From positions 1-22,106 of IMG/VR virus record IMGVR_UViG_3300003937_000219: DNA of 22,106 nt; one strand, written 5' to 3'. Under the pieces are notes generated by a model, which was given only the letters and a program-made list of their open reading frames with translations, was not told where the DNA came from and ran no database searches. Position numbers and translations under genes: made by a program. The stretch comes from a virus. Below, piece after piece: positions 4,725 through 21,916 of this stretch (positions are counted from its first letter, which is position 1; every line of letters begins with the position of its first letter).

Positions 4725-4934
4725 ATGACTACACCCGTAAGACCAGACGTTGACGAAAAGAAACGTACACGCCTCATATATTTAAAGAAACAACACAGAG
4801 ACCTAGACAACGGTATAACTACTGCATACAATATGCGTACTGAAGACCTAGTAGTTTCTAAACTTAAGTTGAAGAAGTTGCATCTAAAAGAAGAAATTCT
4901 ACGGCTAGAAGAAGAGTTAGCAGGAAACTTGTGA
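4725..4934 (+). CDS. Small YdcH/DUF465-like coiled-coil protein
   Basis: This 69-residue, highly charged helical protein has the YdcH/DUF465 pattern: YLKKQHRDLDNGI in the first helix, a short linker, and then LVVSKLKLKKLHLKEEILRLEEEL, the L-K-x-x-K-L-x-L-K-x-E-I second helix typical of the family. The family is widespread in bacteria and found in marine T4-like phages, with no firm biochemical role. It starts at ATG 4725 with AGGAG at 4714-4718 and overlaps the apt gene at GTGA (4931-4934). A late-type promoter box lies just upstream. The two-helix hairpin is what I can see; function is unknown. Confidence 0.7.
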   Translation: MTTPVRPDVDEKKRTRLIYLKKQHRDLDNGITTAYNMRTEDLVVSKLKLKKLHLKEEILRLEEELAGNL

Positions 4935-5482
4935 CTATTATAAAACCTACACCAAAAACTATTCAAAATTTGATTAGAGTAATACCAGACCATCCTAGGC
5001 CTGGTGTTCTCTATCAGGATATGGCTAGTATATTTAATGCACCTCAAGGTCTTCAACATGTAATGACTTTGTTTTCAGACTATATTGAAGAAAACAATAT
5101 TCAATTTAACAAAATCATTGGGCTAGATGCTCGTGGTTTTCCTATGGCAGGTGCATTAAGTTCACAAACTGGTATACCATTTTCTATGGCTAGAAAGAAA
5201 GGTAAACTACCAGGTGAAACTATCTTTACACAATATGAACTAGAATATGGAACTGATGAATTACATCTACAGAAAGGTGCAATACAAAGAGGTGACAAAG
5301 TTCTGGTCATAGATGATGTTATTGCAACTGGTGGGACACTAGGTGCTGTGATTACATTAACTGATAGATTTGGTGCTGATATTAGTAGTATACTAAGTAT
5401 AATGGAACTAGAGTTTTTAGGTGGTGGTGCTAAGTTACGAGACGAAGGCTACGATGTATACTCTATACTCCAAGAACAATAA
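4931..5482 (+). CDS. apt: Adenine phosphoribosyltransferase
   Basis: This 183-residue enzyme would convert adenine and PRPP to AMP and pyrophosphate, a purine salvage step in the cytoplasm. Family hallmarks are the N-terminal IPDHPRPGVLYQDM (18-31) with the proline-glycine-aspartate segment of APRTs, IIGLDARGF (62-70) forming part of the substrate loop, the RKKGKLPGET loop (88-97), and the PRPP-binding VLVIDDVIATGGT (124-136). Length equals that of bacterial APRTs. GTG at 4931 is the likely start because it overlaps the previous gene's stop and the first residues align with the family N-terminus. It is cotranscribed with metK. Adenine arises from breakdown of SAM-derived nucleosides, so the pairing with metK is suggestive. 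Confidence 0.95.
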   Translation: MTIIKPTPKTIQNLIRVIPDHPRPGVLYQDMASIFNAPQGLQHVMTLFSDYIEENNIQFNKIIGLDARGFPMAGALSSQTGIPFSMARKKGKLPGETIFTQYELEYGTDELHLQKGAIQRGDKVLVIDDVIATGGTLGAVITLTDRFGADISSILSIMELEFLGGGAKLRDEGYDVYSILQEQ

Positions 5483-5497
5483 CATAAAAGGGTTTAA

Positions 5498-6580
5498 ATG
5501 AACAACTATATTTTTACAAGCGAAAGTGTAAGCGATGGACATCCAGATAAAGTTTCTGACCAGATTAGTGATGCATTAGTTGATGCAGGACTAAAGAATG
5601 GCGATGAAACTACTCGTGTTGCTATCGAAACACTTGTAACCACTAACCACGTAACGGTAGCGGGTGAAGTAAAGAACTTTAACGTAGATAATGTAAAAGA
5701 TATTATACGAGATAAAGTTAAAGAAATTGGCTATGAACAAGAAGGATTTCATTGGGATAATTTAAATATCTATAATGAAATACATTCACAATCAGGTGAT
5801 ATTGGATTAGGTACTGATGACTTTGGTGCAGGTGACCAAGGCATTATGTTTGGCTATGCAACTAATGAAAACGATGCAATGCTACCAGCACCAATTTACT
5901 ATTCACATGAAATTCTAAAGAAACTAAAAGAACTTAGATTAGATGGATATGATTTCTTACTTCCAGATGCTAAGTCTCAAGTAAGTATTCAGTATGTTGG
6001 TGGTCGTGTTCAACGAGCAGACCAAATTGTAGTAAGTACACAACATAAACAGGGCTTTATGCATAGTCTTAAAGCACCAGTGAAAGAAGCAGTCAATAGT
6101 GTAATGGGAGATTTAATAGATGACAATACTAAATGGCATATCAATCCTACAGGCAATTTTGTCATTGGTGGTCCTGATGGTGATACAGGACTCACCGGGC
6201 GTAAGATTATCGTTGATACTTATGGTGGCTATGCTCCCCATGGTGGTGGTGCTTTTAGTGGAAAAGACCCCACAAAAGTCGACCGAAGTGCCGCCTATAT
6301 GGCACGGTGGTTAGCAAAGAATGTTGTAGCAGACAATATGGCAGATTGGTGTCAAATTCAATTGTCATATGCTATTGGTGTAAAAGAACCAACAAGTATC
6401 TATATAGATAGTAATGGACACAACAGAACTATTCAAAAGTTTATCGAAGAAAACATTGACCTAACACCAAAGGGTATCATTGATAGATTTGATTTATTCA
6501 AGTTTTATGGTTATAGTGAAAACTGTATCTACGGACACTTTGGCAACAAAGATGTACCATGGGAAAAGATTGGATGGTAA
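5498..6580 (+). CDS. metK: S-adenosylmethionine synthetase
   Basis: This 360-residue enzyme makes S-adenosylmethionine from ATP and methionine. It shows the N-terminal ESVSDGHPDKVSDQISD (9-25) with the ATP-binding histidine and aspartates, the GAGDQGIMFGY loop (110-120), and the phosphate-binding GGGAFSGKDPTKVDRSAAY (249-267). It is somewhat shorter than the roughly 384-residue bacterial enzyme, but all three domain motifs are present and it reads through without breaks. A ribosome site (AAAGGG) precedes ATG 5498, fifteen bases after apt. Phage SAM synthesis could feed the methyltransferase-like protein at 3333 or other methylations. Some T4-like and larger phages take the opposite route and destroy SAM, which makes a complete synthetase notable. 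Confidence 0.96.
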   Translation: MNNYIFTSESVSDGHPDKVSDQISDALVDAGLKNGDETTRVAIETLVTTNHVTVAGEVKNFNVDNVKDIIRDKVKEIGYEQEGFHWDNLNIYNEIHSQSGDIGLGTDDFGAGDQGIMFGYATNENDAMLPAPIYYSHEILKKLKELRLDGYDFLLPDAKSQVSIQYVGGRVQRADQIVVSTQHKQGFMHSLKAPVKEAVNSVMGDLIDDNTKWHINPTGNFVIGGPDGDTGLTGRKIIVDTYGGYAPHGGGAFSGKDPTKVDRSAAYMARWLAKNVVADNMADWCQIQLSYAIGVKEPTSIYIDSNGHNRTIQKFIEENIDLTPKGIIDRFDLFKFYGYSENCIYGHFGNKDVPWEKIGW

Positions 6581-7132: not shown

Positions 7133-8131
7133 ATGAGTACCTATATCTTAGTTGATTCGTTTAATATGTATCACAGAGCCAAACACGTAGCAATGCGTGG
7201 TGCTAATATTGATATGAAAATCGGTATGGCATACCACATTATGCTTAGTAGTGTAAAACTATGTTATAACAAATTCAATGCAGACCATGCCGTGTTCTGC
7301 CTAGAAGGTCGCAGTTGGCGTAAAGACTTCTATGAGCCATATAAGAAGAATAGAAAAGTTGCTCAAATGGCTAAGAGTGTTAGAGAGCAAGAAGAAGACC
7401 AAATCATGTTCGATGCCTATGCAGACATGGTAGAGTTTTTAGATACAAAAACTAATGTAACTATGTTACGAAATCCAGAAGCAGAAGCAGACGATATGAT
7501 TGCTTTGTTTATTGAGGCGCATCCAAATGATAATCATATTATCGTATCAAGCGATAGTGATTACTTTCAACTTATCACTGACAATGTAACTATGTATGAT
7601 GGTGTACAAAATCGTATCATTACTAAAGATGGTTTCTTTAAAGATGATAAGAATATGACCCCTATCAAAGAGAAGAAGACTGGTGAGATTAAAGAGAAAG
7701 TAGACCCGAAGTGGGCATTGTTTGAGAAATGTGTCCGTGGCGATACATCAGATAATATCTTTTCAGCATATCCTGGCTGTCGTAAGAAAGGTACCAAGAA
7801 CAAGATTGGTATGTTAGAAGCATTCGCAGATAAAGATGCTGGTGGTTTCAACTGGAATAACTTTATGTTACAACGCTGGACTGACCATAATGGTGAAGAA
7901 CATACTGTCCGTGAAGACTATGAACGCAATGTTAAACTAGTAGACTTAACGGCTCAACCACATGAACTTAAAGTAAAGTTTATTGAAACTATTGCAGAGA
8001 ATAGTATTCCTAAGACTAATGCTGGTGTTGGTATGAACTTCTTAAAGTTCTGTGGCATACATGATTTACAAAATCTTGCTAAGTCACCTGACGAACTTGC
8101 TAAAATACTTAACAATCCGTATCCGTCTTAA
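7133..8131 (+). CDS. rnh: RNase H / 5'-3' flap exonuclease (T4 rnh type)
   Basis: This 332-residue protein belongs to the 5'-3' exonuclease/FEN family that removes RNA primers in lagging-strand synthesis. Metal-binding acidic residues are visible: D8 in VDSFNMYHRA, the cluster NPEAEADDMIA (E116, E118, D120, D121) and SSDSDYFQL (D141, D143). The WRKDFYEPYKKNRK segment (62-74) matches the basic arch of the T4 enzyme, which has WRRDFAYYYKKNRG. A later aspartate-rich KCVRGDTSDNIF is the helix-hairpin-helix entry with the second metal site. It is slightly longer than T4 RNase H (305), with a lysine-rich insert near 180-195. Its stop shares a base with the next start (TAATG). Confidence 0.92.
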   Translation: MSTYILVDSFNMYHRAKHVAMRGANIDMKIGMAYHIMLSSVKLCYNKFNADHAVFCLEGRSWRKDFYEPYKKNRKVAQMAKSVREQEEDQIMFDAYADMVEFLDTKTNVTMLRNPEAEADDMIALFIEAHPNDNHIIVSSDSDYFQLITDNVTMYDGVQNRIITKDGFFKDDKNMTPIKEKKTGEIKEKVDPKWALFEKCVRGDTSDNIFSAYPGCRKKGTKNKIGMLEAFADKDAGGFNWNNFMLQRWTDHNGEEHTVREDYERNVKLVDLTAQPHELKVKFIETIAENSIPKTNAGVGMNFLKFCGIHDLQNLAKSPDELAKILNNPYPS

Positions 8132-8850
8132 TGCATTTTATATTTGACGTAGATGGTACTCTAACACCAAGTAGAGATAGAATAGATGAAGACTTTAGAC
8201 TATGGTTCTTAGAGTTCATCAAGTGGAATAATGTTTACTTAGTTACAGGAAGTGATAGAAGTAAAACAGAAGAACAAGTTGGTGAAGAAGTATTTGAAAA
8301 GGTAGAATGTGTATACAATTCTTCTGGCAATACCAAATATAAAAATGGTATATGCGTAATGAATTCAAAAAACTTAGAACTGCCACGTGATGCGTATGCT
8401 TTCTTATTAAAGAAATCTATTAGTAGTGATTTTGATATCGCCACAGGCAATCATTTTGAAGCAAGACCAGGACTATTAAACTTTAGTGTTGTTGGTAGAA
8501 ATGCTAACAGAGTACAACGAAAGAAGTATGTTAAGTTTGATACTACAACTAATGAAAGACAAAAGATTTCTGATGAATTTAACAAAAAGTTTACTGGTAA
8601 GTTTGGTCTAATATCACAGGTTGCAGGTGAAACAGGATTAGATATTATTGAGATGGGTAAAGACAAAGCACAAATATTAAAGGATTTTACATTCCAAGAT
8701 AAGTTGATATTCTTTGGTGACAACATACAATGGGGCGGCAACGATTATGGCATTGCACAAGCAATTGAATATGGTCCATATGCGTACAGTGAATGTCACA
8801 ATGTAAAGAATTGGAAAGAAACTTGGAAGATACTAAAAAGATTTAAATGA
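8131..8850 (+). CDS. Eukaryotic-type phosphomannomutase-like HAD phosphatase/mutase
   Basis: This 239-residue protein matches the eukaryotic phosphomannomutase (PMM1/PMM2) branch of the HAD superfamily, not the usual bacterial ManB family. It has FDVDGTLTPSRDRID (D6 and D8 as nucleophile and acid/base), VTGSDRSKTEEQ (GSD at 40-42), the cap signature R-x-G-x-L-N-x-S-x-x-G-R (R112 to R123), and C-terminal FFGDN and GGND (202-205). These are in PMM order and spacing. The family interconverts mannose-6- and mannose-1-phosphate, a step toward GDP-mannose; the phage substrate is not known. It is tightly coupled to RNase H upstream (TAATG) and to the next gene (ATGA). A general sugar phosphatase is the alternative. 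Confidence 0.82.
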   Translation: MHFIFDVDGTLTPSRDRIDEDFRLWFLEFIKWNNVYLVTGSDRSKTEEQVGEEVFEKVECVYNSSGNTKYKNGICVMNSKNLELPRDAYAFLLKKSISSDFDIATGNHFEARPGLLNFSVVGRNANRVQRKKYVKFDTTTNERQKISDEFNKKFTGKFGLISQVAGETGLDIIEMGKDKAQILKDFTFQDKLIFFGDNIQWGGNDYGIAQAIEYGPYAYSECHNVKNWKETWKILKRFK

Positions 8851-9380: not shown

Positions 9381-9561
9381 AAGTTTAAAAGATTTTCTAG
9401 CAACAATCAAACGTATAAATCTAAGAGGCGATAACAAGATAGTATTGCCAATGAAAGATGCAATAGATATTCAAAATGATATTGCTTTACTATTACTAGA
9501 ACTAAAAGATAAAGACTCAGGAACAACTAAAGTTTTTGATGGTGGAACCTTTGATAAATGA
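9370..9561 (+). CDS. Small unknown protein in the accessory operon
   Basis: A 63-residue frame starts at ATG 9370, overlapping the previous gene by 11 bases, and ends in an ATGA overlap with the first SGNH-like gene. It is helical in its middle (MKDAIDIQNDIALLLLELKDKD) with a glycine-containing tail. The double overlap is the best evidence that it is translated. No family is recognised. Confidence 0.65.
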   Translation: MDYKSLKDFLATIKRINLRGDNKIVLPMKDAIDIQNDIALLLLELKDKDSGTTKVFDGGTFDK

Positions 9562-10286
9562 TTGGTATATTTGGTGATAGTTTTAGTGATGAAATTGATA
9601 CTAGTATAGGTGGATATCTAGGAGGCTGGCCATCTGCTTTAGGTAAGTTGTATGATGAAGAAATAGAGAATTTTAGTGAATCATCTACATCTATTTCATA
9701 TAGTTATCAAAAATTCTGTGAGCAAGATTTAAGTAAATATTCAAAGGTTGTCTTTGTTGTTACCTATCCAACTAGACAACTTCTTATTAATAACGCAGAA
9801 CACAAATCAATACAGTTTCAAGGTGATGTAACTCGGTCGATTCAACATAACAAAGACTTTAATATAGACTTAACCTTATCAGACAAACGTGTATTAGAAT
9901 ACCAAGAAAACATAACTGCATTTTATCCTGACACATGGAACTTCGTTAAAAGAGCAGTAAAAGGTGATGTTTTACACTCGCATAAGAATGCTCTAGTATT
10001 GGACGTAGAATTACTAGGTACTATAACTACTTTAGGATTAAATACTCCTATGGCTCCTTGGTTTACAACACCAAAAGGTGAAGAATGGCATACTAAATAT
10101 ATAGAGACTGCCGAACTAGGAAGAGTGTGTCATTTTAGTACGCAACAAAATATAGAGTTAGCAGTTCTTATTAAAGATTACTTTGATAATGGGATTGATA
10201 TACATAATGAGATTAAATGGCACACAGATAAATATTTTACTATACCAGAATCAATGGAAGATGCTGGTCTTAAATTGAGAAGGTAG
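9558..10286 (+). CDS. SGNH/GDSL-like protein, first of a tandem pair
   Basis: The 242-residue product opens with MIGIFGDSFSDE, whose GDS block fits the nucleophile serine of SGNH/GDSL hydrolases, followed by a NFSESSTSISYSYQ segment and the hydrophobic strand KVVFVVTYPTRQL. A late histidine in CHFSTQQN could be the catalytic one. The usual aspartate three residues before that histidine is absent (GRVCH) and no G-x-N-D block III is visible, so hydrolase activity is uncertain. If active, it would cleave or transfer an ester, perhaps on a polysaccharide or lipid. It overlaps the upstream gene at ATGA and is four bases before its paralogue. Confidence 0.7.
   Translation: MIGIFGDSFSDEIDTSIGGYLGGWPSALGKLYDEEIENFSESSTSISYSYQKFCEQDLSKYSKVVFVVTYPTRQLLINNAEHKSIQFQGDVTRSIQHNKDFNIDLTLSDKRVLEYQENITAFYPDTWNFVKRAVKGDVLHSHKNALVLDVELLGTITTLGLNTPMAPWFTTPKGEEWHTKYIETAELGRVCHFSTQQNIELAVLIKDYFDNGIDIHNEIKWHTDKYFTIPESMEDAGLKLRR
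10170..10208 (+). repeat. Repeat copy A: 3' segment of the first SGNH-like gene
   Basis: Bases 10171-10208 match 10871-10908 at 36 of 38 positions by eye; the copies are exactly 700 bases apart. They encode KDYFDNG followed by I or F and DIHN in both genes. Confidence 0.85.
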
Positions 10287-10290
10287 TCAA

Positions 10291-10983
10291 ATGATTGGAA
10301 TATTTGGTGATAGTTTTGCATATGAAGGTCATGGCTCACATGTAAATGTAGGATGGCCCACATATCTTTCTGATTTATATAACGAAGAAAATCAGAACTT
10401 TTCAATCTCAGGTTCATCAATTCCTTACAGTTATCAATTACTTTGTGAGAAAGACTTAAGTATATACTCAAAAGTTATATTCATTGCTACAGAACCACGT
10501 AGACTCCACTTTGTAGATAAAAAAACTAATAAAGAAATGTTATGGAATGGTCGTGATGTACCTGGTTCAATAATATGTAATTCAGTCGATACTTATTCTT
10601 CATATGACACATCTTACGATGGAGTAGCCCTAAGATACCAAGAATACATAACGGCAATGTATCCTGATAGTTGGAAGTGGATGGCTAAAGCAATGAGAAA
10701 TGATGTTGTTCGTAAACACGAAAATTTATTATTATTAGATATATTCGAACTATCATTTATAAGTAACTTGGGCGCACCAGATAGGCCATGGCATATTGAT
10801 TGGACAGAAGACAATAATATTAGAAGTTGTCATATGACAAAATTACAGAATAGAGAACTTGCAGGATATATTAAAGATTACTTTGATAATGGATTTGATA
10901 TACATAATACATTAAAGTCTGATACTGTAAAAGAATACTATACTGAACCTTTGCACCATGAATCGGGATTTGTAAAAAAATGA
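10291..10983 (+). CDS. SGNH/GDSL-like protein, second of a tandem pair
   Basis: This 230-residue paralogue of the preceding gene starts MIGIFGDSFAYE and keeps the same order of elements: GDS block, NFSISGSSIPYSYQ, the strand KVIFIATEPRRL, and a late CHMTKLQNRELAG histidine. The shared C-terminal KDYFDNG-x-DIHN is almost identical even in DNA. As in its partner, the residue three before the late histidine is not aspartate (RSCH). A GAGAAGG ribosome site (10277-10283) lies before ATG 10291, and the stop overlaps the next gene as ATGA. Roles may have split between the copies, since the middle regions differ. Possible functions are acyl esterase or deacylase, or a binding protein with a GDSL fold. 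Confidence 0.7.
   Translation: MIGIFGDSFAYEGHGSHVNVGWPTYLSDLYNEENQNFSISGSSIPYSYQLLCEKDLSIYSKVIFIATEPRRLHFVDKKTNKEMLWNGRDVPGSIICNSVDTYSSYDTSYDGVALRYQEYITAMYPDSWKWMAKAMRNDVVRKHENLLLLDIFELSFISNLGAPDRPWHIDWTEDNNIRSCHMTKLQNRELAGYIKDYFDNGFDIHNTLKSDTVKEYYTEPLHHESGFVKK
10871..10908 (+). repeat. Repeat copy B: 3' segment of the second SGNH-like gene
   Basis: This is the second copy of the 38-base near-identical segment that begins at 10171. The two differ at two adjacent positions. It supports tandem duplication or continuing gene conversion. Confidence 0.85.
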
Positions 10984-11663
10984 TTGATACAAAAACATGG
11001 GTATTTGGTACTACATCAGAATTAAGTAAAAAGATTATAAGCAATGTAGAAGAGCCTATTCTATTTGGTAGACATAATGTAGATTACAGTGACCCAGATA
11101 AATTCATAAAAGAACATGTAGTTGATGATAACCCAATTGAAATGATTGTTAATATTAATCTTCCACATATGTCAGGTTTTGTACCTTTAACTAACATCAA
11201 CGAATTTAATAATCTTTTTGTAGAACAGAATAGTAATATATTCTTCTTTTACAAACTACTTACTGCTACTGCTGATATGAAGAAACCAGTGAAGGTTTGC
11301 TTTATAACAAGTACTTTTCCTAATACATCTTGTGTGAAAATGAAGAAAGACGTATCATCACAAGACCACATAGAAAGTGTTATTGGGTTTCAAAATTATT
11401 TTACTTATGCTAGTACTAGAGCCATTCAACAGTTTGCATTCTTTTCTAGGACCAATGAATATACAAAGTCTATAGGTGTTAGTCCGTCAGGTATAAATGA
11501 GAGTAACATAGACGAATACGCAAGAAGAATAACAAATATAGTTAAAGAAGACCGAGTAGATAAACAATGGGGTTGTGTATACGATTTAAGTAGACCAGAA
11601 GGTTGGTCAGAAACATGGCCAGATGCTGATATATGTAACGGTTTTTGGTTTTTCTATAACTAA
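10980..11663 (+). CDS. Degenerate short-chain dehydrogenase/reductase-like protein
   Basis: The 227-residue product has the outline of an SDR fold: an N-terminal strand and turn WVFGTTSELSKKI (7-19) in place of the nucleotide-binding TGxxxGxG, a D-rich second strand region, EMIVNINLPHMSG resembling the NNAG strand, VCFITST (106-112) with the catalytic-serine strand, FTYASTRAIQQF (141-152) in place of Y-x-x-x-K, and a GVSPSGINES segment like the PG-x-I/V-x-T turn. The lysine of Y-x-x-x-K is arginine (R147), so classic redox activity may be altered or lost. It overlaps the second SGNH-like gene at ATGA and ends the accessory operon. The fold call is inferred from motif order. Confidence 0.5.
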   Translation: MIDTKTWVFGTTSELSKKIISNVEEPILFGRHNVDYSDPDKFIKEHVVDDNPIEMIVNINLPHMSGFVPLTNINEFNNLFVEQNSNIFFFYKLLTATADMKKPVKVCFITSTFPNTSCVKMKKDVSSQDHIESVIGFQNYFTYASTRAIQQFAFFSRTNEYTKSIGVSPSGINESNIDEYARRITNIVKEDRVDKQWGCVYDLSRPEGWSETWPDADICNGFWFFYN

Positions 11664-12801: not shown

Positions 12802-13926
12802 ATGAAAGTATCAACAAACGATTTAGATGTGAGAGTAGTTCGTCCTAGTGATGTACGTGCCGAGATTAATTACGCTATGAACCGAAAGCGTCCGGTATTC
12901 ATATGGGGACCTCCTGGTGTTGGTAAATCAGAAATTGTAGATAGCATTACCCAAGAACGTTCTGGGTTTATGATTGACCTTCGTCTCGCTCTTATGGAGC
13001 CCACAGATTTACGAGGTATTCCATACTTCAATGAGAAGAATGGTACTATGGAATGGGCCACACCTTCAGATTTGCCTAGCCAAGAACTTGCTGACCAATA
13101 TGAAAGTGTTGTTCTTTTCTTAGATGAAATGAACCAAGCACCACAATCAGTTCAAGCCGCGGCTTATCAGTTAATTCTAAACCGTCGTTTAGGTTCTTAT
13201 GTGCTACCAGATAACGTGTTAATCGTTGCGGCTGGTAACCGTGAAAGTGACCGAGGTGTTGCATATCGTATGCCTTCACCACTTGCTAACCGTTTTGTTC
13301 ACCTTGAAATGGGTGTTGACTTCGAAGATTGGCAGACTTGGGCATTAGAGAACAAAATCAGTGCCGATGTGGTTGGTTTCTTAACGTCTAACAAGATGGA
13401 CTTATTCAACTTTGACCCACGTCAGGCGAGCCGTGCCTTTGCTACTCCTCGTTCTTGGACTTTTGTTTCTGAAATGTTACCACAAGAAGGTGAAGAAATT
13501 TCACAAAGTCGTTTACATGACTTGATTGCTGGTACAGTTGGTGATGGTGTTGCTACTAAGTTTATGGCTCACAGAGCCTTGTCAAGTAAGTTGCCTGTTC
13601 CTTCTGATATCTTAGATGGTACAGTTACAACTCTTTCATCAGAAGCACGTGAGATTTCAGCGATGTTCTCGTTGACAACTTCACTATGTTACGAGTTGAA
13701 AGACTTTGTAGACCGTAATGGTAAAGACAAAATGGATGAGTTATATAGCATGGCTAATAACTTCTTTAAGTTTATGATGGAAAACTTTGATACTGAAATG
13801 ACAGTATTAGGTGGTCGTACTGCTCTTAAAGTTTACAAACTTCCATTAGAGCCTCGTAAAGTGCCTTGTATTGAAGATTTCTTCAAAAAGCATGGTAAAC
13901 TTATCATCGAGGCCCATAACGCCTAA
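12802..13926 (+). CDS. MoxR-type AAA+ ATPase
   Basis: This 374-residue protein is an AAA+ ATPase of the MoxR type, which work as chaperone-like remodelers with VWA-domain partners. Walker A is GPPGVGKSE (36-44), Walker B VVLFLDEMNQ (103-112), and sensor 1 lies in IVAAGNRESDRG. The conserved LMEPTDLRGIPYF segment and the APQSVQAAAYQLILNRR helix also match the family. The C-terminal 150 residues are helical and ATPase-lid-like. The likely partner is the VWA protein at 20597, 6.7 kb downstream, which is under a related promoter. MoxR/VWA pairs are common in tailed-phage genomes, but their viral role is not settled. Confidence 0.92.
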   Translation: MKVSTNDLDVRVVRPSDVRAEINYAMNRKRPVFIWGPPGVGKSEIVDSITQERSGFMIDLRLALMEPTDLRGIPYFNEKNGTMEWATPSDLPSQELADQYESVVLFLDEMNQAPQSVQAAAYQLILNRRLGSYVLPDNVLIVAAGNRESDRGVAYRMPSPLANRFVHLEMGVDFEDWQTWALENKISADVVGFLTSNKMDLFNFDPRQASRAFATPRSWTFVSEMLPQEGEEISQSRLHDLIAGTVGDGVATKFMAHRALSSKLPVPSDILDGTVTTLSSEAREISAMFSLTTSLCYELKDFVDRNGKDKMDELYSMANNFFKFMMENFDTEMTVLGGRTALKVYKLPLEPRKVPCIEDFFKKHGKLIIEAHNA

Positions 13927-14036: not shown

Positions 14037-14065
14037 TTGACTTTCCTTGATTTTTATGGTATACT
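14037..14065 (+). promoter_or_regulatory. Sigma-70-like promoter P6, probably giving a leaderless message
   Basis: TTGACT at 14037-14042 and TATACT at 14060-14065 are 17 bases apart. The expected start falls on or next to ATG 14072, and no ribosome site lies between. It would drive the ligase, halogenase, acyltransferase-like and ketosynthase genes. Confidence 0.7.
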
Positions 14066-14071
14066 GGTGTA

Positions 14072-15457
14072 ATGATATTTGAAACTATAAAAAACCAATC
14101 ACAATTACATCGGCATAAAACCGCAGTAATTTGTGGTGACAAAAAATATACCTACACTGAACTTATTGAGAGTGTAGAAAAACTGGCTGCCGTTATGTCT
14201 ACTGCATTTCTTCCAGGTGACAGATTATTATTTGCTAGTGGTAAAGAATATCATTATATTAGAATGGTATTAGCATGTGACATTCTCGGTGTAACATTCA
14301 TGCCTACATTTCCAAATCTGCCAAAAGATGTAGTAGATGGAATAGTAGAAGCAAGTTCACCAGACCATATTATACTAACTGAGGCTGATGCTTTAGCCTT
14401 AGAACCACATAACAAAGCACTGATATATTCTAAGAAAACCGACCATACATACACAGTATTATTCACAAGTGGTACAACCGGTAAACCTAAAGCAGTTGCA
14501 CATACGAGTGCAGGATGTTTGATGGCATGTTTCAATAGTATTAGTGTGTATCAAATGAGTTCAAATGATGTAATACTATCTCAATTACCACCATCAACCG
14601 TAGGAGGTTTGTATCTATACGCACTTCCAGGACTAATTAAAGGTTGTACAGTTGTAATCGAACAGTTCAATCCTAGACGATTTGTAAAGTTATGTGAAGA
14701 ATATAAACCAACAATAGGCATAATTGTTCCAGCAATGATACTTGCTATGCAGAATTTAAAGACATGGAATGAATTAGATATGTCTCATTGGAGAGAACTA
14801 AGTGTTGGTAGTACAATTATACCAGAAGAAATGTTAGACATTCTATTCAGTAAAGGTGTCCCTGCCATCAGAGATTTATATGGGTGTACGGAAACTCAAG
14901 TTCCAGCATTCACATTCTTAATTGAACCAGATACTGAACACAAATTACAACTTGAATGCAATGACCAATATGAATACAAATTAGATAGACATGACCAGTT
15001 ATGGTTAAAAAGTCCTCTACTAATGAGCAACTATCTGAATGCAGATGCAGAACTAGACAGTGATGGTTTTTGGTGTACAGGTGATGTATTTGAACGCAAG
15101 TATAATAAACTATTTTACAAGTCTCGCAGAAAAGATTTAATGAAAATCAACAGTCATAATGTATCACCAATTGGTATAGAAAATGCTATATTAGTATTAG
15201 ACGGTGTTGATGAAGTATGTGTAATATCTAAAGAACGAGGTTTAGGTGAAAAATATATCGTAGCAATTATAAGTAGTCAGGACCCACAGATAAATAAATC
15301 GTTAGTGATGAATTCTATAGAAAGTAAACTCATGCCATATGAACTTCCTAAAGATATAATCGTTACTAAAGAAACTCTGCCTAGAAATCAGATGGGCAAA
15401 ATACAGAGACATGTTATACAAGGCATCTACGGAGAAGTCAATGAAGACCAAAGTTAA
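14072..15457 (+). CDS. Adenylate-forming (ANL superfamily) acyl ligase
   Basis: This 461-residue enzyme would activate a carboxylic acid with ATP to an acyl-adenylate, probably passing it to a thiol such as CoA or a carrier. Motifs run in family order: LFTSGTTGKPK (130-140) for ATP, YGCTE (270-274), TGD (336-338), SRRKD-L-MK (351-358), and PRNQMGKIQR with catalytic K443. The chain is short for an acyl-CoA synthetase (usually 500 or more), but both N- and C-terminal domains are present. In the hinge motif the usual glycine-rich segment reads KINSHNVSP, which may affect thioester formation. ATG 14072 has no ribosome site and sits at the predicted transcript start. The substrate is unknown; the operon's halogenase and ketosynthase suggest a fatty or aromatic acid. 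Confidence 0.92.
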   Translation: MIFETIKNQSQLHRHKTAVICGDKKYTYTELIESVEKLAAVMSTAFLPGDRLLFASGKEYHYIRMVLACDILGVTFMPTFPNLPKDVVDGIVEASSPDHIILTEADALALEPHNKALIYSKKTDHTYTVLFTSGTTGKPKAVAHTSAGCLMACFNSISVYQMSSNDVILSQLPPSTVGGLYLYALPGLIKGCTVVIEQFNPRRFVKLCEEYKPTIGIIVPAMILAMQNLKTWNELDMSHWRELSVGSTIIPEEMLDILFSKGVPAIRDLYGCTETQVPAFTFLIEPDTEHKLQLECNDQYEYKLDRHDQLWLKSPLLMSNYLNADAELDSDGFWCTGDVFERKYNKLFYKSRRKDLMKINSHNVSPIGIENAILVLDGVDEVCVISKERGLGEKYIVAIISSQDPQINKSLVMNSIESKLMPYELPKDIIVTKETLPRNQMGKIQRHVIQGIYGEVNEDQS

Positions 15458-17129
15458 AAAGATAGTTGTTGTCGGCGGTGGTGTAGGCGGTTGGCTATCT
15501 GCATCTTGGCTAAAAACAAAACATCCAGAACTAGACATAACCCTTATTGAAAGTGATAAAGTAGGAACTATTGGTATTGGTGAAAGTGTCTTACCTCGCC
15601 TAGGAACTATGTTAAGTGATATAGGGCTAGAAGAACGAGAGTGGATGTCTTATACACATTCAATATACAAACTTGGTAATAAATTTATTGGCTGGAATAT
15701 TCCAGGTAAAAGAGACCATGTTACTAATCACTGGTGGCCTTCTAAGTTTGATGAATCATATTATGGATTTTCTTATGCCTTACCAGAAGAACACTTAGCA
15801 TCAAGTTATTATAATCAATTAAAGACTACCGATTTGTTTTACAACTCTAAAGGTAAAGAAGGTGTTAATGATAAATGGAATGATTATTGGCTTCAATTAG
15901 CACGTGATGGTAGAAAAAACTTATGGGAGATTGCACAAGATACACAAGAGGCAACTTACTTGATGGACTACTGTAAGTCTCCTTATGACATGAATGACAA
16001 TCTGATGTTAGGTTCATGGGAAAGTCTAACATATCATATCGATGCAAATAGATTTCCGAAACTAATTAAAGATAGAGTTGCGATACCAAAAGGTGTTAAG
16101 CACATACATGGACATATATCTGAGATTAAAAAAGATGCCGACGGATACATATCATCTGTCGTAACAGACGCAGGCGAAGAATACAGTGGTGATTTATTTT
16201 TAGATTGCACAGGCTTTCATAGAGTTCTTACAAAAGAAATGGATGTCGAATGGAAACCTTATAATGAAATTACTACGGACAATTTAATCTTTGCACCAAT
16301 AAAATACAATGACCCAGTAAAAGAAATGCGTCCATATACTATGAGCAATGCAATGGATGAAGGTTGGTTGTTTATCATTTCATTATATAATAGAATGGGT
16401 TCAGGTTATATATTTGATGCTAGTGAGATATCTCCAGAAGATGCAATGAAGAAGTATAAAAAGTATTGGGAAGGTCACGAGTTTATAAGAGAACCTAGAC
16501 ATATAAAATGGGATGCTGGTAAATACGATACGCAATGGAATAACAATGTAGTATCAATCGGAATGACTGGTGGAATGATTGAACCTATGGAAGCAAACGT
16601 GTTAGCACTAGCACAGGCTGGTATGAAAATGGTTGAACGAATTATTTCACGTGCAGATGAAAATGATGAAGTGATTGGCAAAGCATCAATCAAGGCATAT
16701 AATAGTAACCTAAATTGGCTGTTCGATAACATAACAAAATTTGTAGACTATCACTATACTTTAAGTGACAGAACTGACACACCTTTCTGGGCTAAAAAAC
16801 ACCAAAGAGGCATTGATGAAAATCATAAAGAAGAAATATGGAAGCAGTATAGAAATCCTAGATGCACACCAGAATCAGGTGTACCAGATTATATGTGGGC
16901 ACAAGTAGCCGTTTCTATGGACAAGTTTGATGATGATGTTGAACTTCATGTTCGTCCAGACTTATTAGAGAAAGCAAACGAATCATTTGAATGGTTAAGA
17001 AAATCTAGTAAACGAAATGGAATATATGCACCAAACGCCTATGAATGGAATAAGAAAATGTTATTCGGTGATAGAACTCATAGTGAAGTACTAGAAGAAA
17101 GTTTAAAACCACAAGATGAAGATAGTTAA
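15441..17129 (+). CDS. FAD-dependent halogenase (tryptophan halogenase family)
   Basis: This 562-residue flavoenzyme resembles tryptophan 7-halogenase PrnA: GGGVGG (12-17) binds FAD, IGIGESVLP (44-52) matches the IGVGEATIP segment, and YKLGNKF puts K77 at the position of catalytic K79 of PrnA. Near 374-384, GMTGGMIEPMEA aligns with the LEPLES region (E381). The halogenase signature W-x-W-x-I-P reads W-L-F-I-I-S (309-314), though the following NRMGSGYIF matches. Marine cyanophage enzyme VirX1, a viral flavin halogenase that iodinates varied substrates, is the closest precedent I know. ATG 15441 with GGAGAAG just before it (15431-15437) is preferred over upstream TTG 15411. It overlaps the ligase by 17 bases and needs reduced flavin from the host or elsewhere. 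Confidence 0.9.
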   Translation: MKTKVKKIVVVGGGVGGWLSASWLKTKHPELDITLIESDKVGTIGIGESVLPRLGTMLSDIGLEEREWMSYTHSIYKLGNKFIGWNIPGKRDHVTNHWWPSKFDESYYGFSYALPEEHLASSYYNQLKTTDLFYNSKGKEGVNDKWNDYWLQLARDGRKNLWEIAQDTQEATYLMDYCKSPYDMNDNLMLGSWESLTYHIDANRFPKLIKDRVAIPKGVKHIHGHISEIKKDADGYISSVVTDAGEEYSGDLFLDCTGFHRVLTKEMDVEWKPYNEITTDNLIFAPIKYNDPVKEMRPYTMSNAMDEGWLFIISLYNRMGSGYIFDASEISPEDAMKKYKKYWEGHEFIREPRHIKWDAGKYDTQWNNNVVSIGMTGGMIEPMEANVLALAQAGMKMVERIISRADENDEVIGKASIKAYNSNLNWLFDNITKFVDYHYTLSDRTDTPFWAKKHQRGIDENHKEEIWKQYRNPRCTPESGVPDYMWAQVAVSMDKFDDDVELHVRPDLLEKANESFEWLRKSSKRNGIYAPNAYEWNKKMLFGDRTHSEVLEESLKPQDEDS

Positions 17130-17727
17130 AACATTTATAGGTAAGAATAGTTTTGAATTTAATCTTGTAGAATATGACCCAAGTCTACAGAGTGATTTAG
17201 AAGATTTCTGTAAGCGATGTGACCGAGAAGGTTACACCAATAACGCAAGTTTTAAAGCATTGAAACTTGGCAAATGGGGTAACTTAGAAAAGTGGTGGCT
17301 TGTTTATCATAAAGATAAGATTATCAGCATGAGTGGTGCCCATTATTTTCCACACTTACATTCTAACTGTTTTATTATATTAAGTAGAATGGCTACAATG
17401 AAGGCATATAATGGAATGGCATCGCCTTCTGTGTCGGCTAGAAAGATGCAACACAACTTTGCATTTGGAGTTTTTATGCCAGTTCAAATAGATTGGTGTT
17501 TAGAAATGGGTGCTACAGATATTATAGGAACTACCAACTCACCAAAAAACGACACAGATAGAAGTGGCACAATGTTTAAAGTCCACGAATATGCTGACAA
17601 GTTTTTTAAGATAGGTGACAAAGCAACTAGAATACATAAAGACTTTCCAAGTTACAATACACTACAAGATATTTGGAGATTTAATGTAAGAGACTTTGCG
17701 ACAATGGAAAAGATAAAATACAAATGA
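17116..17727 (+). CDS. GNAT-like acyltransferase-like protein (tentative)
   Basis: The 203-residue product starts at ATG 17116, overlapping the halogenase by 14 bases, and ends in an ATGA overlap with the ketosynthase. Its strand-helix pattern fits an N-acyltransferase fold: a first half EKWWLVYHKDKIISMSGAHYF like the beta-2 to beta-4 sheet with the typical DKII turn, then SRMATMKAYNG where GNAT proteins place their cofactor strand, followed by ASPSVSARKMQHNF-type helix and IDWCLEMGATDIIGTTN. The canonical R/Q-x-x-G-x-A pyrophosphate loop is not clear. If it is an acyltransferase, it could move an acyl group from the ligase/ketosynthase thioester to an amine. The fold assignment is inference. 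Confidence 0.45.
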   Translation: MKIVKTFIGKNSFEFNLVEYDPSLQSDLEDFCKRCDREGYTNNASFKALKLGKWGNLEKWWLVYHKDKIISMSGAHYFPHLHSNCFIILSRMATMKAYNGMASPSVSARKMQHNFAFGVFMPVQIDWCLEMGATDIIGTTNSPKNDTDRSGTMFKVHEYADKFFKIGDKATRIHKDFPSYNTLQDIWRFNVRDFATMEKIKYK

Positions 17728-18875
17728 CAGTATATATTAACGCAATTAGTGGTCTAACTCCTTTTGGTGACCTAGAAGACACATGGAAGGCAATAACAAA
17801 TGATGAAGTTTGTTACGGTCCTCTTACTAAATTTTCACATGATAAGAGCATCAGGTCTAAGGTTTCAGGTGAGGTTAAGTTTAATGCTGAAAACCATCCT
17901 ATCATAACTGAAAGAGAACAAGATAAAATGCCATCGTATATGCAATGGGCATTATCATCAGCAGATAAATTATTACACAAACAAGATTTAGAAAAAGACA
18001 GAACTGGTGTTCTTGTATCAACTGCCCTTAGTATGTATAACGAACCTCTACGAGCAAGTGAAAATAAGAATGTCAACACTTATACATTCACCCCAAATCT
18101 TATATCAAACAATATCAATATTAAATATGGTTTTACAGGACCAAGTACAATGTTGTCTAGTGCGTGTTCTACAGGACTGTACAGTATCATTATGGGTTGT
18201 ATGATGATTGAAACAGGACAAGCCGATAACATAATTGCTGGTGCATTTGATGATTCGATTTATAAGGATGCATATAAACAGTTCGGTAAACTAAGAGCAT
18301 TGTCAACAAAGTACAATGAAACTCCTGAAATAGCAAGTCGTCCATGGGATAAAGATAGAGACGGACTAGTTCTCAGTGAGGGTGGTGCATTATTTTTATT
18401 ATCAAAAACTAAGACAAAAGATACAATAGCAGAGATATCTGGATATGCAATGAATAACGATGCATTCCAGGCTGTTGCTCCGCATCCAGATGGGACTATG
18501 ATAGAAAAATGTATGAAAGATGCACTGTTTTATCGCACACCAGACTTAATCAATGCACATGCAACATCTACCCCTAAGGGCGATTATATTGAGGTGGATG
18601 CAATCAATAGATTAGGACTAGAAGATGTATGGGTAACAGCAAATAAGTCGCAAATTGGTCACTTAATGGGGGCTGCCGGTGCCATAGAGACTGCTTTAAG
18701 CGTACTTTCACTAGAAAATGACATTATTACTCCATCTTTAAACATAAATGAACTAGAAGATGGTTATAATATAAAATATACACCAACTACCATATCACAT
18801 AAAGTTAATTCAGTACTGTGTAATAGTTTTGGATTTGGTGGGACAAATGCATGTATTTTGTTATCAAAAACTTGA
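17724..18875 (+). CDS. Beta-ketoacyl synthase (FabF/FabB type)
   Basis: This 383-residue thiolase-fold enzyme condenses acyl thioesters, normally on acyl carrier protein, with loss of CO2. All catalytic residues are present in order: nucleophile C148 in SSACSTG, H279 in NAHATSTPKGD, K308 in ANKSQIGHLMGAAGA and H313 in the same segment, and the C-terminal NSFGFGGTNA glycine-rich turn. Length is a little under the roughly 410 residues of FabF, mainly shorter loops. It begins in an ATGA overlap and its TGA stop lies within the -35 of P7. No acyl carrier protein or ketoreductase is adjacent; only the degenerate SDR-like protein at 10980 hints at one. It might use host carrier protein to make or divert an acyl chain. 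Confidence 0.94.
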   Translation: MTVYINAISGLTPFGDLEDTWKAITNDEVCYGPLTKFSHDKSIRSKVSGEVKFNAENHPIITEREQDKMPSYMQWALSSADKLLHKQDLEKDRTGVLVSTALSMYNEPLRASENKNVNTYTFTPNLISNNINIKYGFTGPSTMLSSACSTGLYSIIMGCMMIETGQADNIIAGAFDDSIYKDAYKQFGKLRALSTKYNETPEIASRPWDKDRDGLVLSEGGALFLLSKTKTKDTIAEISGYAMNNDAFQAVAPHPDGTMIEKCMKDALFYRTPDLINAHATSTPKGDYIEVDAINRLGLEDVWVTANKSQIGHLMGAAGAIETALSVLSLENDIITPSLNINELEDGYNIKYTPTTISHKVNSVLCNSFGFGGTNACILLSKT

Positions 18876-18899
18876 CAAGATTGCAAAATGTGTTATACT
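18872..18899 (+). promoter_or_regulatory. Sigma-70-like promoter P7
   Basis: TTGACA at 18872-18877 contains the ketosynthase stop TGA (18873-18875); TATACT is at 18894-18899 after a 16-base spacer ending in TGT. It drives the gene at 18931. Confidence 0.85.
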
Positions 18900-18930: not shown

Positions 18931-19746
18931 ATGATAGACACATCGAACAAACATAGTTACACCCTTGAAAGAGAATCAAAAGTCGTTGTTTACTTTGGTA
19001 AATATGACTTCACCAATGGTGCTGAGATTATACATAATATAAAATCATCGGACAGTCCGTATTCATTTTCTAAAGATGAACTTCTTACGGCAGCCGTAGT
19101 GGCAAATAAATTCAATTCGAAGTATGTTAAAGCCGGTGGGACTTTTGATATAGTTGAAGGTGAATTTGTGAAGACTGCTTTCAGTAATAAAGACATTCTT
19201 GCTTCAATTTTGGTGAGTTATCCACATTTAATACTTGACGAAGACCGACAAAAAGCATCAGACATAATGAGATACTTAGAAGGTGAGTTTTCTTTTAAGA
19301 TACTTGCTGATACTTTAACTGAATTTGAAAGTAGTATTGCTACATTCTTAGGTGCAGACAGTGATTCATTAGCACAGATAATAGGTGTTGCGGCTTATCT
19401 TCCTACTTACTATGATAATGCAGTAAAAAATGATGAACTCCGTGAAAGAAGTTTTCATACTGGACATCTCGGTGAAGTTGGTGAGAAGATAATAACAGAG
19501 ATTGAAATACTTAGGTCAAAATACTTGGCAGAGACCGCATTTGGTGGCTCAGGTTACATGGTGAGTGCTATTACTACTGACGACCATAGAGTTAGTTTCT
19601 TTACTACTAATGATGATTTAGCAAACAGTAAAAAGAATGTTAAGGTTTCATGTAAAGTGAAATCACTAGGTACTGCTTGGAAAGAAGACACGATTAACGA
19701 AACTAGAGTTAATTACGTTAGAATTTTAAATGTAGCAGATTTATAG
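18931..19746 (+). CDS. Unknown phage protein with a possible OB-like C-terminal domain
   Basis: The 271-residue product begins MIDTSNKHSYTLERESK. Residues about 45-170 are mostly helical, with a conspicuous FSKDELLTAAVVANKF region and an acidic DEDRQKASDIMRYLEGEF segment. The last 90 residues form a strand-rich block (GEVGEKIITEIEILRSKYL, then MVSAITTDDHRVSFFTTNDD, then NVKVSCKVKSLG) that recalls an OB-fold tail seen in phage nucleic acid-binding proteins. This resemblance is from pattern only. It has its own promoter P7 and a weak ribosome site. No catalytic motif is visible. Confidence 0.65.
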   Translation: MIDTSNKHSYTLERESKVVVYFGKYDFTNGAEIIHNIKSSDSPYSFSKDELLTAAVVANKFNSKYVKAGGTFDIVEGEFVKTAFSNKDILASILVSYPHLILDEDRQKASDIMRYLEGEFSFKILADTLTEFESSIATFLGADSDSLAQIIGVAAYLPTYYDNAVKNDELRERSFHTGHLGEVGEKIITEIEILRSKYLAETAFGGSGYMVSAITTDDHRVSFFTTNDDLANSKKNVKVSCKVKSLGTAWKEDTINETRVNYVRILNVADL

Positions 19747-20596: not shown

Positions 20597-21916
20597 ATGG
20601 GTCAACCACAAAAACAAGTAGCCACAGAAAGCGAATTAGATAGTGCATTAGATGATGTTCTAGCCGCTAATGGTATTGAAGTAGATGATACTCTACCAGA
20701 ACCTGTAGTATTTGATTATACTGACGAAAAAGTCAAAGAAATGATTGTGAGTAGTCGTGTTCGCCTTCTTATTCGTCACCCATTTTTCGGTACACTTGCT
20801 ACTCGATTGAAATTAGTTGAGGCAGAATGGTGTCCTACAGCCGCTACTGACGGCAGACATTTTTATTACAACTGTGATTTCTTCCGAACTATGACATCAG
20901 AAGAAATTGATTTCGTTGTTGGTCACGAAGTTCTTCACTGTGTATATGAACACTGTGGTGAGTATGGTCGTTTGATGGACATGGAAGAAAATTCACGTGA
21001 CATGAAACTTTGGAATATTGCGGCTGACTATAAAGTCAATCAAGCCCTAGTCGAATCACGTGTTGGTGTTATGCCAAAGATGGCATTACATGACCGAAAG
21101 TATTACAGGAGTTACACCGAAGAGATTTATGAACACCTTAAAGAAACTGGCGAGGGTGATGATAAAGAAACATTAGACCAGCACATGTTTGGTGACGGTA
21201 ACGGTGACGGCAAGAATGACCCAACTGGTCGTGGTGCTCCTATCAAAGTTTCTAAGCAAGAAGCCCAAGCGATTAAAGACCAGATGAAACAGGCTGTAAT
21301 ACAAGCGGCACAATCAACTGATGCCGGTACTCTTCCTGGTGATGTTAAAAGAATTATAAATGGCATGACTAATCCTAAAATGGATTGGCGTGAACTTCTT
21401 AACATTTCAATTCAAAGTCTTTTGAAAAGTGATTTCACATTTATGAGACAATCTCGTAAATCACAATCAATGGGTGTTTATCTTCCTGGTTCAAAAAATG
21501 AAGAAAAGATTGATGTTGCAATCGCACTTGATGTTTCTGGTTCTATTTCATCTACTATGATTGAAGAGTTTCTTGGTGAAATGTCTGGCATTATGCAACA
21601 GTTCCAAGACTTCAAAATTCGTGTTTGGACTTTTGATACCGAAGTAAATGGCGAGGGTTATAAAGAGTTTGACCCGTACAATGCCGATGAACTTAAAGAG
21701 TACGAGATTATCGGTGGCGGTGGTACTGACTTTGATATCAACTATCAGTTTATGAAAGATAATGATATTGAGCCTGATAAGTTTATTATGTTTACTGATG
21801 GCTTACCTTGGGATAGTTGGGGTGACGAAAGTTATTGTGATAGTTTGTTTATCATTCACGGTTCTGAAAGCATTGTCCCACCTTTCGGTGAACATGCATA
21901 CTATAGCGAGGGATGA
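20597..21916 (+). CDS. VWA-domain protein with metallopeptidase-like N-terminal domain (DUF2201 type), MoxR partner
   Basis: This 439-residue protein combines two parts. The N-terminal part has HEVLH (110-114), an HExxH zinc motif, with a conserved WNIAADYKVNQ helix after it, as in putative metallopeptidases of the DUF2201 kind. The C-terminal part is a VWA domain with the metal-ion site D-x-S-G-S (D312, S314, S316), a later GGGGTDF threonine and FTDGLPWD. An acidic linker with a glycine-rich DGNGDGKND run separates them. VWA proteins of this kind work with MoxR ATPases; the ATPase here is at 12802. The start ATG 20597 has AAGAGGA upstream and promoter P9. Whether the HEVLH site cleaves peptide bonds is unknown. 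Confidence 0.88.
   Translation: MGQPQKQVATESELDSALDDVLAANGIEVDDTLPEPVVFDYTDEKVKEMIVSSRVRLLIRHPFFGTLATRLKLVEAEWCPTAATDGRHFYYNCDFFRTMTSEEIDFVVGHEVLHCVYEHCGEYGRLMDMEENSRDMKLWNIAADYKVNQALVESRVGVMPKMALHDRKYYRSYTEEIYEHLKETGEGDDKETLDQHMFGDGNGDGKNDPTGRGAPIKVSKQEAQAIKDQMKQAVIQAAQSTDAGTLPGDVKRIINGMTNPKMDWRELLNISIQSLLKSDFTFMRQSRKSQSMGVYLPGSKNEEKIDVAIALDVSGSISSTMIEEFLGEMSGIMQQFQDFKIRVWTFDTEVNGEGYKEFDPYNADELKEYEIIGGGGTDFDINYQFMKDNDIEPDKFIMFTDGLPWDSWGDESYCDSLFIIHGSESIVPPFGEHAYYSEG

Follow-up and report, generated by a model that had tools for sequence, protein, structure and literature searches.

The window, as the whole analysed stretch is called here, consists of 22,106 bases of viral DNA (IMG/VR virus record IMGVR_UViG_3300003937_000219, positions 1-22,106). 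It carries an operon of four genes, all on the plus strand, which encode in order an adenylate-forming (ANL) acid ligase, a flavin-dependent halogenase-like enzyme, a GNAT-like protein and a beta-ketoacyl synthase (ketosynthase, KS), with successive overlaps of 17, 14 and 4 nucleotides (nt). The original prediction, made from the letters of the window, had placed four overlapping genes at 14037-18875 behind one promoter, and this holds: the open reading frames span 14072-18875, their order is conserved, and the start coordinate 14037 is the -35 box of the promoter (Table 1). For the halogenase-like gene the mechanical reading frame begins at 15411; relatives begin at the position of 15441, and this start was taken.

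About 6 nt separate the promoter from the start codon (ATG) of the ligase, and the operon transcript may be nearly leaderless. Of the 21 relatives inspected, nearly all have TTGACTT ... TATAAT-like boxes at the equivalent place 5' of the ligase gene. In many relatives, L042, L036 and L043 among them, a GGGAGAG...CTCTCCC hairpin with a run of T after it encloses the -35 box, about 60 bp 5' of the ligase; this terminator-like structure overlaps the operon promoter. At the other end the operon probably stops at the ketosynthase, because a separate promoter-like site at 18872 serves orf271 (18931-19746). This gene was considered as a part of the module and rejected on two grounds, its separate promoter-like site and its presence also where the module has decayed.

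Table 1. Features of the operon and of its borders in the window.
Feature	Position	Strand	Length (aa)	Basis or remark
MoxR-like ATPase	12802..13926	+		phrog_1297 7e-96; conserved left border of insertion site
Sigma70-like promoter	14037..14065	+		TTGACT-N17-TATACT, extended -10; 10/12 consensus positions
Adenylate-forming (ANL) acid ligase	14072..15457	+	461	PF00501 3e-42, PF13193
Flavin-dependent halogenase-like enzyme	15441..17129	+	562	PF04820 4e-83
GNAT-fold acyltransferase-like protein	17116..17727	+	203	AlphaFold2 model, Foldseek
Beta-ketoacyl-ACP synthase (FabF-like)	17724..18875	+	383	PF00109+PF02801 1e-32
Promoter-like site for orf271	18872..18899	+		11/12 consensus positions
VWA/metallopeptidase-like protein (DUF2201)	20597..21916	+		Pfam; conserved right border

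IMG/VR was scanned with the ketosynthase, ligase and halogenase, and the neighbouring MoxR gene was used for a census of the site. The same gene order recurs, with identities of 55-100% for the ketosynthase, ligase and halogenase-like protein and 38-100% for the GNAT-like protein. In 25 contigs MoxR and VWA flank a complete module (others are truncated by the contig end). Some of the contigs are near-copies of one phage, and distinct KS sequences number 18. In all 25 the order, written LIG-HAL-(DES)-GNAT-(DES)-KS to allow for the desaturase-like genes described below, is unbroken and the borders are the same. The search in relatives that the original prediction had proposed as a check therefore came out in its favour, the arrangement not being unique to this contig. 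The module is absent from the site in about 21 relatives. In module-free phages the VWA gene adjoins MoxR, and for the absence of module genes there we rely on KS and acyl carrier protein (ACP) searches. About six changes of the complete-module state are seen on the MoxR tree. Conservation of the four-gene order goes far beyond chance, and purifying selection acts on each of the four genes, with ratios of nonsynonymous to synonymous substitution (dN/dS) of 0.06-0.18 in six close pairs.

Seven contigs (L020, L021, L023, L124, L126, L139, L173) carry a decayed variant with no complete module left. Their ligases are 341-369 amino acids long and have lost the P-loop and the C-terminal domain, with frames that are still open, and may reflect either decay or repurposing. 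The GNAT-like gene usually comes next, a second mini-ligase is present in several, and a distant halogenase fragment (30% identity) follows in one of the seven. These relatives share a smaller set of mini-ligase and GNAT-like genes with another phage (L054-L057), and the 342 kb phage has it as a second cluster (L090:3809-5042, minus strand). A small membrane protein (DUF6356-like in L020) and a distant halogenase sometimes accompany the set. In L056:8736-12086 a small membrane protein, a 352-aa mini-ligase, a 29%-identical halogenase and a GNAT-like protein stand in a row with no KS. Ligase and GNAT together seem to form a common core.

In the alignment the ligase shows these motifs of its family: A3 (FTSGTTGKPK), A5 (YGCTE), A7 (WCTGD), A8 (RRKDLMKIN) and the A10 lysine (NQMGK). 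Its nearest solved structures are 4-coumarate CoA ligase and fatty-acyl CoA ligases. The ketosynthase also matches FabF/KAS II in NCBIfam and in the PDB, and its Cys148-His279-His313 triad and Lys308 are intact in 18/18 distinct KS sequences. The catalytic residues of these two enzymes are thus complete, as had been claimed from the window alone, and they are kept across the complete modules, where the ligase motifs are intact throughout except for P-loop variants. The 203-aa GNAT-like protein has no Pfam match. Its AlphaFold2 model, built from 23 sequences, has a mean confidence (pLDDT) of 90.9, and a Foldseek comparison with the PDB returns GNAT structures (E 2.3e-7, probability 1.00, template modelling (TM) score about 0.5-0.6), among them the N-acyl amino acid synthase FeeM at a TM score of 0.50.

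A carrier protein (PF00550) was found in 7/7 tested module-bearing jumbo contigs, among them one of 99.9 kb that matches the window identically, represents the same phage and has an ADSIDS motif in its ACP. It was also found in 4/8 further module contigs, and the four without a match (G025, G026, G030, G032) do not cover the ACP locus. This gene adjoins HscB-like and IscA genes. Coverage of the locus was judged by the HscB-like gene, and an ACP was counted if it lay within 2 kb. At covered loci the ACP is present in 8/8 module contigs against 0/6 without a complete module (Fisher exact p about 3e-4, 1/3003 by hand), and a looser choice of contigs gives 11/11 against 0/6. In two decayed-module phages the HscB-like protein shares 94% identity with its counterpart in the window's phage, and the ACP is cleanly absent between IscA and a porin-like gene. 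The ACPs keep the serine of the DSL/DSI motif. A holo-ACP synthase (AcpS, PF01648) is encoded in two module contigs, and none was found in a module-free relative of 342,181 bases. The co-occurrence of the ACP with the module and the AcpS of two contigs support an ACP-dependent acyl pathway. It is worth adding that HscB-like and IscA-like iron-sulphur assembly genes (for example L083:609-1478) are kept across these phages, whether or not they have the module.

Our preferred reading, to which we give a probability of about one half, is that the operon supplies the central enzymes of an ACP-dependent acyl pathway encoded by the phage. The ligase would adenylate a carboxylic acid and load it onto the phage ACP, which phage AcpS could convert to the holo form in at least some of these phages. 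In desaturase-bearing relatives the acid would most likely be fatty or otherwise lipophilic. The flavin enzyme would then modify the chain, by halogenation or alternatively by hydroxylation or epoxidation, and relatives may also use their one or two membrane desaturase-like enzymes for this. The FabF-like KS would extend the chain with host malonyl-ACP, with host reductases carrying out the remaining steps. Finally, the GNAT-fold enzyme may release the chain by acyl transfer to an amine, in the manner of FeeM-type N-acyl amino acid synthases. This last step is proposed because FeeM-type synthases take acyl-ACP (PMC8762209) and FeeM is among the fold matches. A halogenated acyl amide is one possible product. 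In infection the pathway might serve membrane or lipid remodelling, or make a secreted or inhibitory small molecule. More tentatively, the ligase, carrier protein, carrier-activating enzyme, condensing enzyme, flavin halogenase, desaturases and releasing acyltransferase could together amount to a largely self-contained natural-product or lipid pathway, which perhaps makes a new and possibly halogenated N-acyl compound during infection.

Several points weigh against this ACP-dependent pathway. The conserved lysine of the ligase P-loop is lost in some relatives (SGTNGSPSA). The cofactor loop of GNAT enzymes has the consensus Q/RxxGxG/A, and the coenzyme A-binding P-loop of the GNAT-like protein departs from it, reading AYNGMAS in the window and YRGMAS in relatives; this region is also the low-confidence part of the AlphaFold2 model. 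About 35 kb separate the ACP gene from the operon, and shared ancestry weakens the ACP statistic, there being 2 supported independent contrasts (4 on the best tree), all concordant and not significant. The halogenase-like enzyme lacks two signature motifs of its family, and no desaturase adjoins the operon in the clade to which the window belongs, for which a fatty substrate is therefore not established. Lastly, a ketoreductase of the adh_short_C2 family (PF13561) was not found in 8 contigs, which may be incomplete, by a search limited to this reductase family that did match 13 control genomes, and the contigs searched yielded no flavin reductase of PF01613; the pathway would therefore require host enzymes.

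The best PDB matches of the flavin enzyme are PyrH, LooH and VirX1. The GxGxxG dinucleotide motif is present in all module members (VVGGGVGGW), and Lys77 and Glu384 align with the catalytic pair of PyrH and are invariant in 17 aligned sequences. The original prediction had rightly noted that this lysine and glutamate are kept; it had missed the loss of other motifs. The WxWxIP motif, reported to block monooxygenation (PMC8407142), reads WLFIIS in the window and takes the form WxFxI[SPTG] throughout the module members. The motif Fx.Px.Sx.G, reported for active halogenases (PMC8407142), reads MIEPMEANV in the window, and its Ser and Gly are replaced in the module flavoproteins. The enzyme is therefore called halogenase-like, and halogenation rather than oxygenation is unproven, because both motifs are lost though the Lys and Glu are kept. 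These losses favour a reading in which the pathway is otherwise as proposed and the flavin enzyme is a monooxygenase, acting as a hydroxylase or epoxidase of the acyl chain. We regard this as unlikely, given the invariant Lys77-Glu384 pair, the variation or absence of WxWxIP in true halogenases such as Bmp5 (PMC8407142), and the retention of FX[DE]PX[EFL] in many relatives (FVEPME, FIEPME), the window having Met for Phe. A structure model of the enzyme was rejected as a guide to the substrate (pLDDT 69, residues 108-195 poorly modelled).

As to the substrate, the main hint of an acyl chain is the desaturase-like genes (PF00487), which lie in or beside the operon singly in L018, L036 and L043 and in pairs in L034, L040 and L042, and whose products carry the three His boxes of membrane desaturases. 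The desaturase-bearing phages have a second type of ACP beside a radical-SAM gene, together with members of a 332-aa family and of the desaturase family, both of which adjoin the KS in other phages. A protein family of about 330-340 aa that has no Pfam match (L034:14935-15933, L077:1680-2681, L100:4061-5083) is encoded beside the KS in one phage and beside an ACP in others. A gene for an SbmA/BacA-family transporter (L091:17006-17980, PF05992 1.7e-138) lies near the module in desaturase-bearing phages. The in-operon desaturase-like genes, together with the FabF-like KS, point to aliphatic chains and speak against a different scheme, in which the ligase would activate an aromatic or amino acid, the halogenase would act on the ring, and KS and GNAT would build a polyketide-like or acyl-amide product with the desaturases as add-ons. 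This scheme agrees with the nearest solved relatives being Trp halogenases and 4-coumarate ligase, and with a class IV aminotransferase gene in one variant cluster. However, sequence similarity is too low for substrate assignment, and we rate it as doubtful.

We consider it equally doubtful that the genes serve a general remodelling of host lipids, in which ordinary membrane fatty acids are raised or altered and no dedicated product is made. KS, ACP, AcpS and the desaturase-like genes do have fatty-acid functions, and some papers mention desaturase genes among phage auxiliary genes, but a dedicated ligase, a flavin halogenase-like enzyme and a GNAT are foreign to ordinary fatty-acid synthesis. 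That the four are unrelated cargo genes gathered at a variable locus is very improbable: the MoxR-VWA interval does vary among relatives, being empty, decayed or swapped in contents, and the uneven identities of the four genes suggest some recombination, but the order is fixed in 25 contigs, the frames overlap, dN/dS is low and the distant ACP co-occurs.

The idea in the original prediction of a viral pathway joining acid activation, halogenation and carbon-chain condensation thus stands in part, being favoured by the conserved order, the purifying selection and the ACP, and its halogenated acyl amide is possible, with two halogenase signature motifs altered. Its suggestion of a lipid or carrier-bound chain is strengthened by the in-operon desaturase-like genes of relatives.

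Several known systems resemble parts of this module. VirX1 and the lone halogenases of cyanophages and pelagiphages share with the module enzyme PF04820, the GxGxxG motif, the catalytic Lys and Glu, the overall fold and a phage origin. These enzymes are about 27-29% identical to it. VirX1 itself is a distant lone relative (about 27%) from a different phage group and keeps WVWNIP and FIEPLESTG, both lost in the module enzyme (the VirX1 candidate Syn10 CPUG_00131 likewise has WVWNIP). In syn9/Syn10, HTVC008M and S-B64, no ligase, GNAT or KS is annotated next to the halogenase. Bacterial type II fatty acid synthesis shares the FabF-like KS with its C-H-H triad, an AcpP-like ACP and AcpS; the phage set differs from it in having no FabG-like reductase in the contigs searched and in adding a ligase, a flavin enzyme and a GNAT. 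A similar combination of enzymes is seen in the jamaicamide-type JamABC cassette (fatty acyl ligase, desaturase and ACP) with its JamD halogenase, a likeness at the level of enzyme functions and not of compared sequences. JamABC belongs to a bacterial modular polyketide synthase/non-ribosomal peptide synthetase with alkyne chemistry, the latter not shown for the phage module. We know of no flavin halogenase in the fee cluster. That cluster, with FeeM, is shared as a working model, offering a GNAT-fold enzyme, an ACP partner and an ACP-linked acyl donor (PMC8762209); the likeness of the phage protein to FeeM is at the level of the fold, at a TM score common to many GNATs, and membership is not claimed.

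No cultured phage in INPHARED carries the operon. KS and ligase matches there have 20-37% identity, many of them in records that resemble bacterial DNA and are mostly unannotated, and the halogenase matches are mostly the lone cyanophage and pelagiphage enzymes. In 85,000 species genomes of bacteria and archaea, two scans with alignments of the halogenase and ligase found no close relatives; they required exact short peptide patterns and could have missed distant homologues. A literature search, with most subscription papers and bioRxiv outside its reach, found no viral ligase-halogenase-KS module. As far as we can tell, therefore, the parts belong to known families and their combination in a virus with its own carrier protein is undescribed.

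The DNA polymerase of the source phage is closest to those of the jumbo myoviruses Agrobacterium phage Atu_ph07 and Sinorhizobium phage Phosso (48% identity), neither of which is among the halogenase or KS matches listed in the cultured-phage search. The longest module-bearing contig has 342,607 bases. Elsewhere, the window encodes a phosphoribosyltransferase, a complete S-adenosylmethionine synthetase and a phosphomannomutase-family protein (4931-6580 and 8131-8850), and two related SGNH-like proteins in tandem (9558-10983), which are absent from the 98%-identical relative L005. The upstream SGNH and SDR-like genes (9558-11663) were rejected as parts of the module, their conservation not being tied to it.

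The metabolic genes known from viruses act for the most part by boosting individual steps of host metabolism, and to our knowledge the known phage halogenases are orphans without a pathway. The phage halogenase-like enzyme described here has conserved partners, including a co-varying carrier protein, and its natural substrate thereby becomes testable. A product, if there is one, would be a specialised metabolite or lipid made by a virus.

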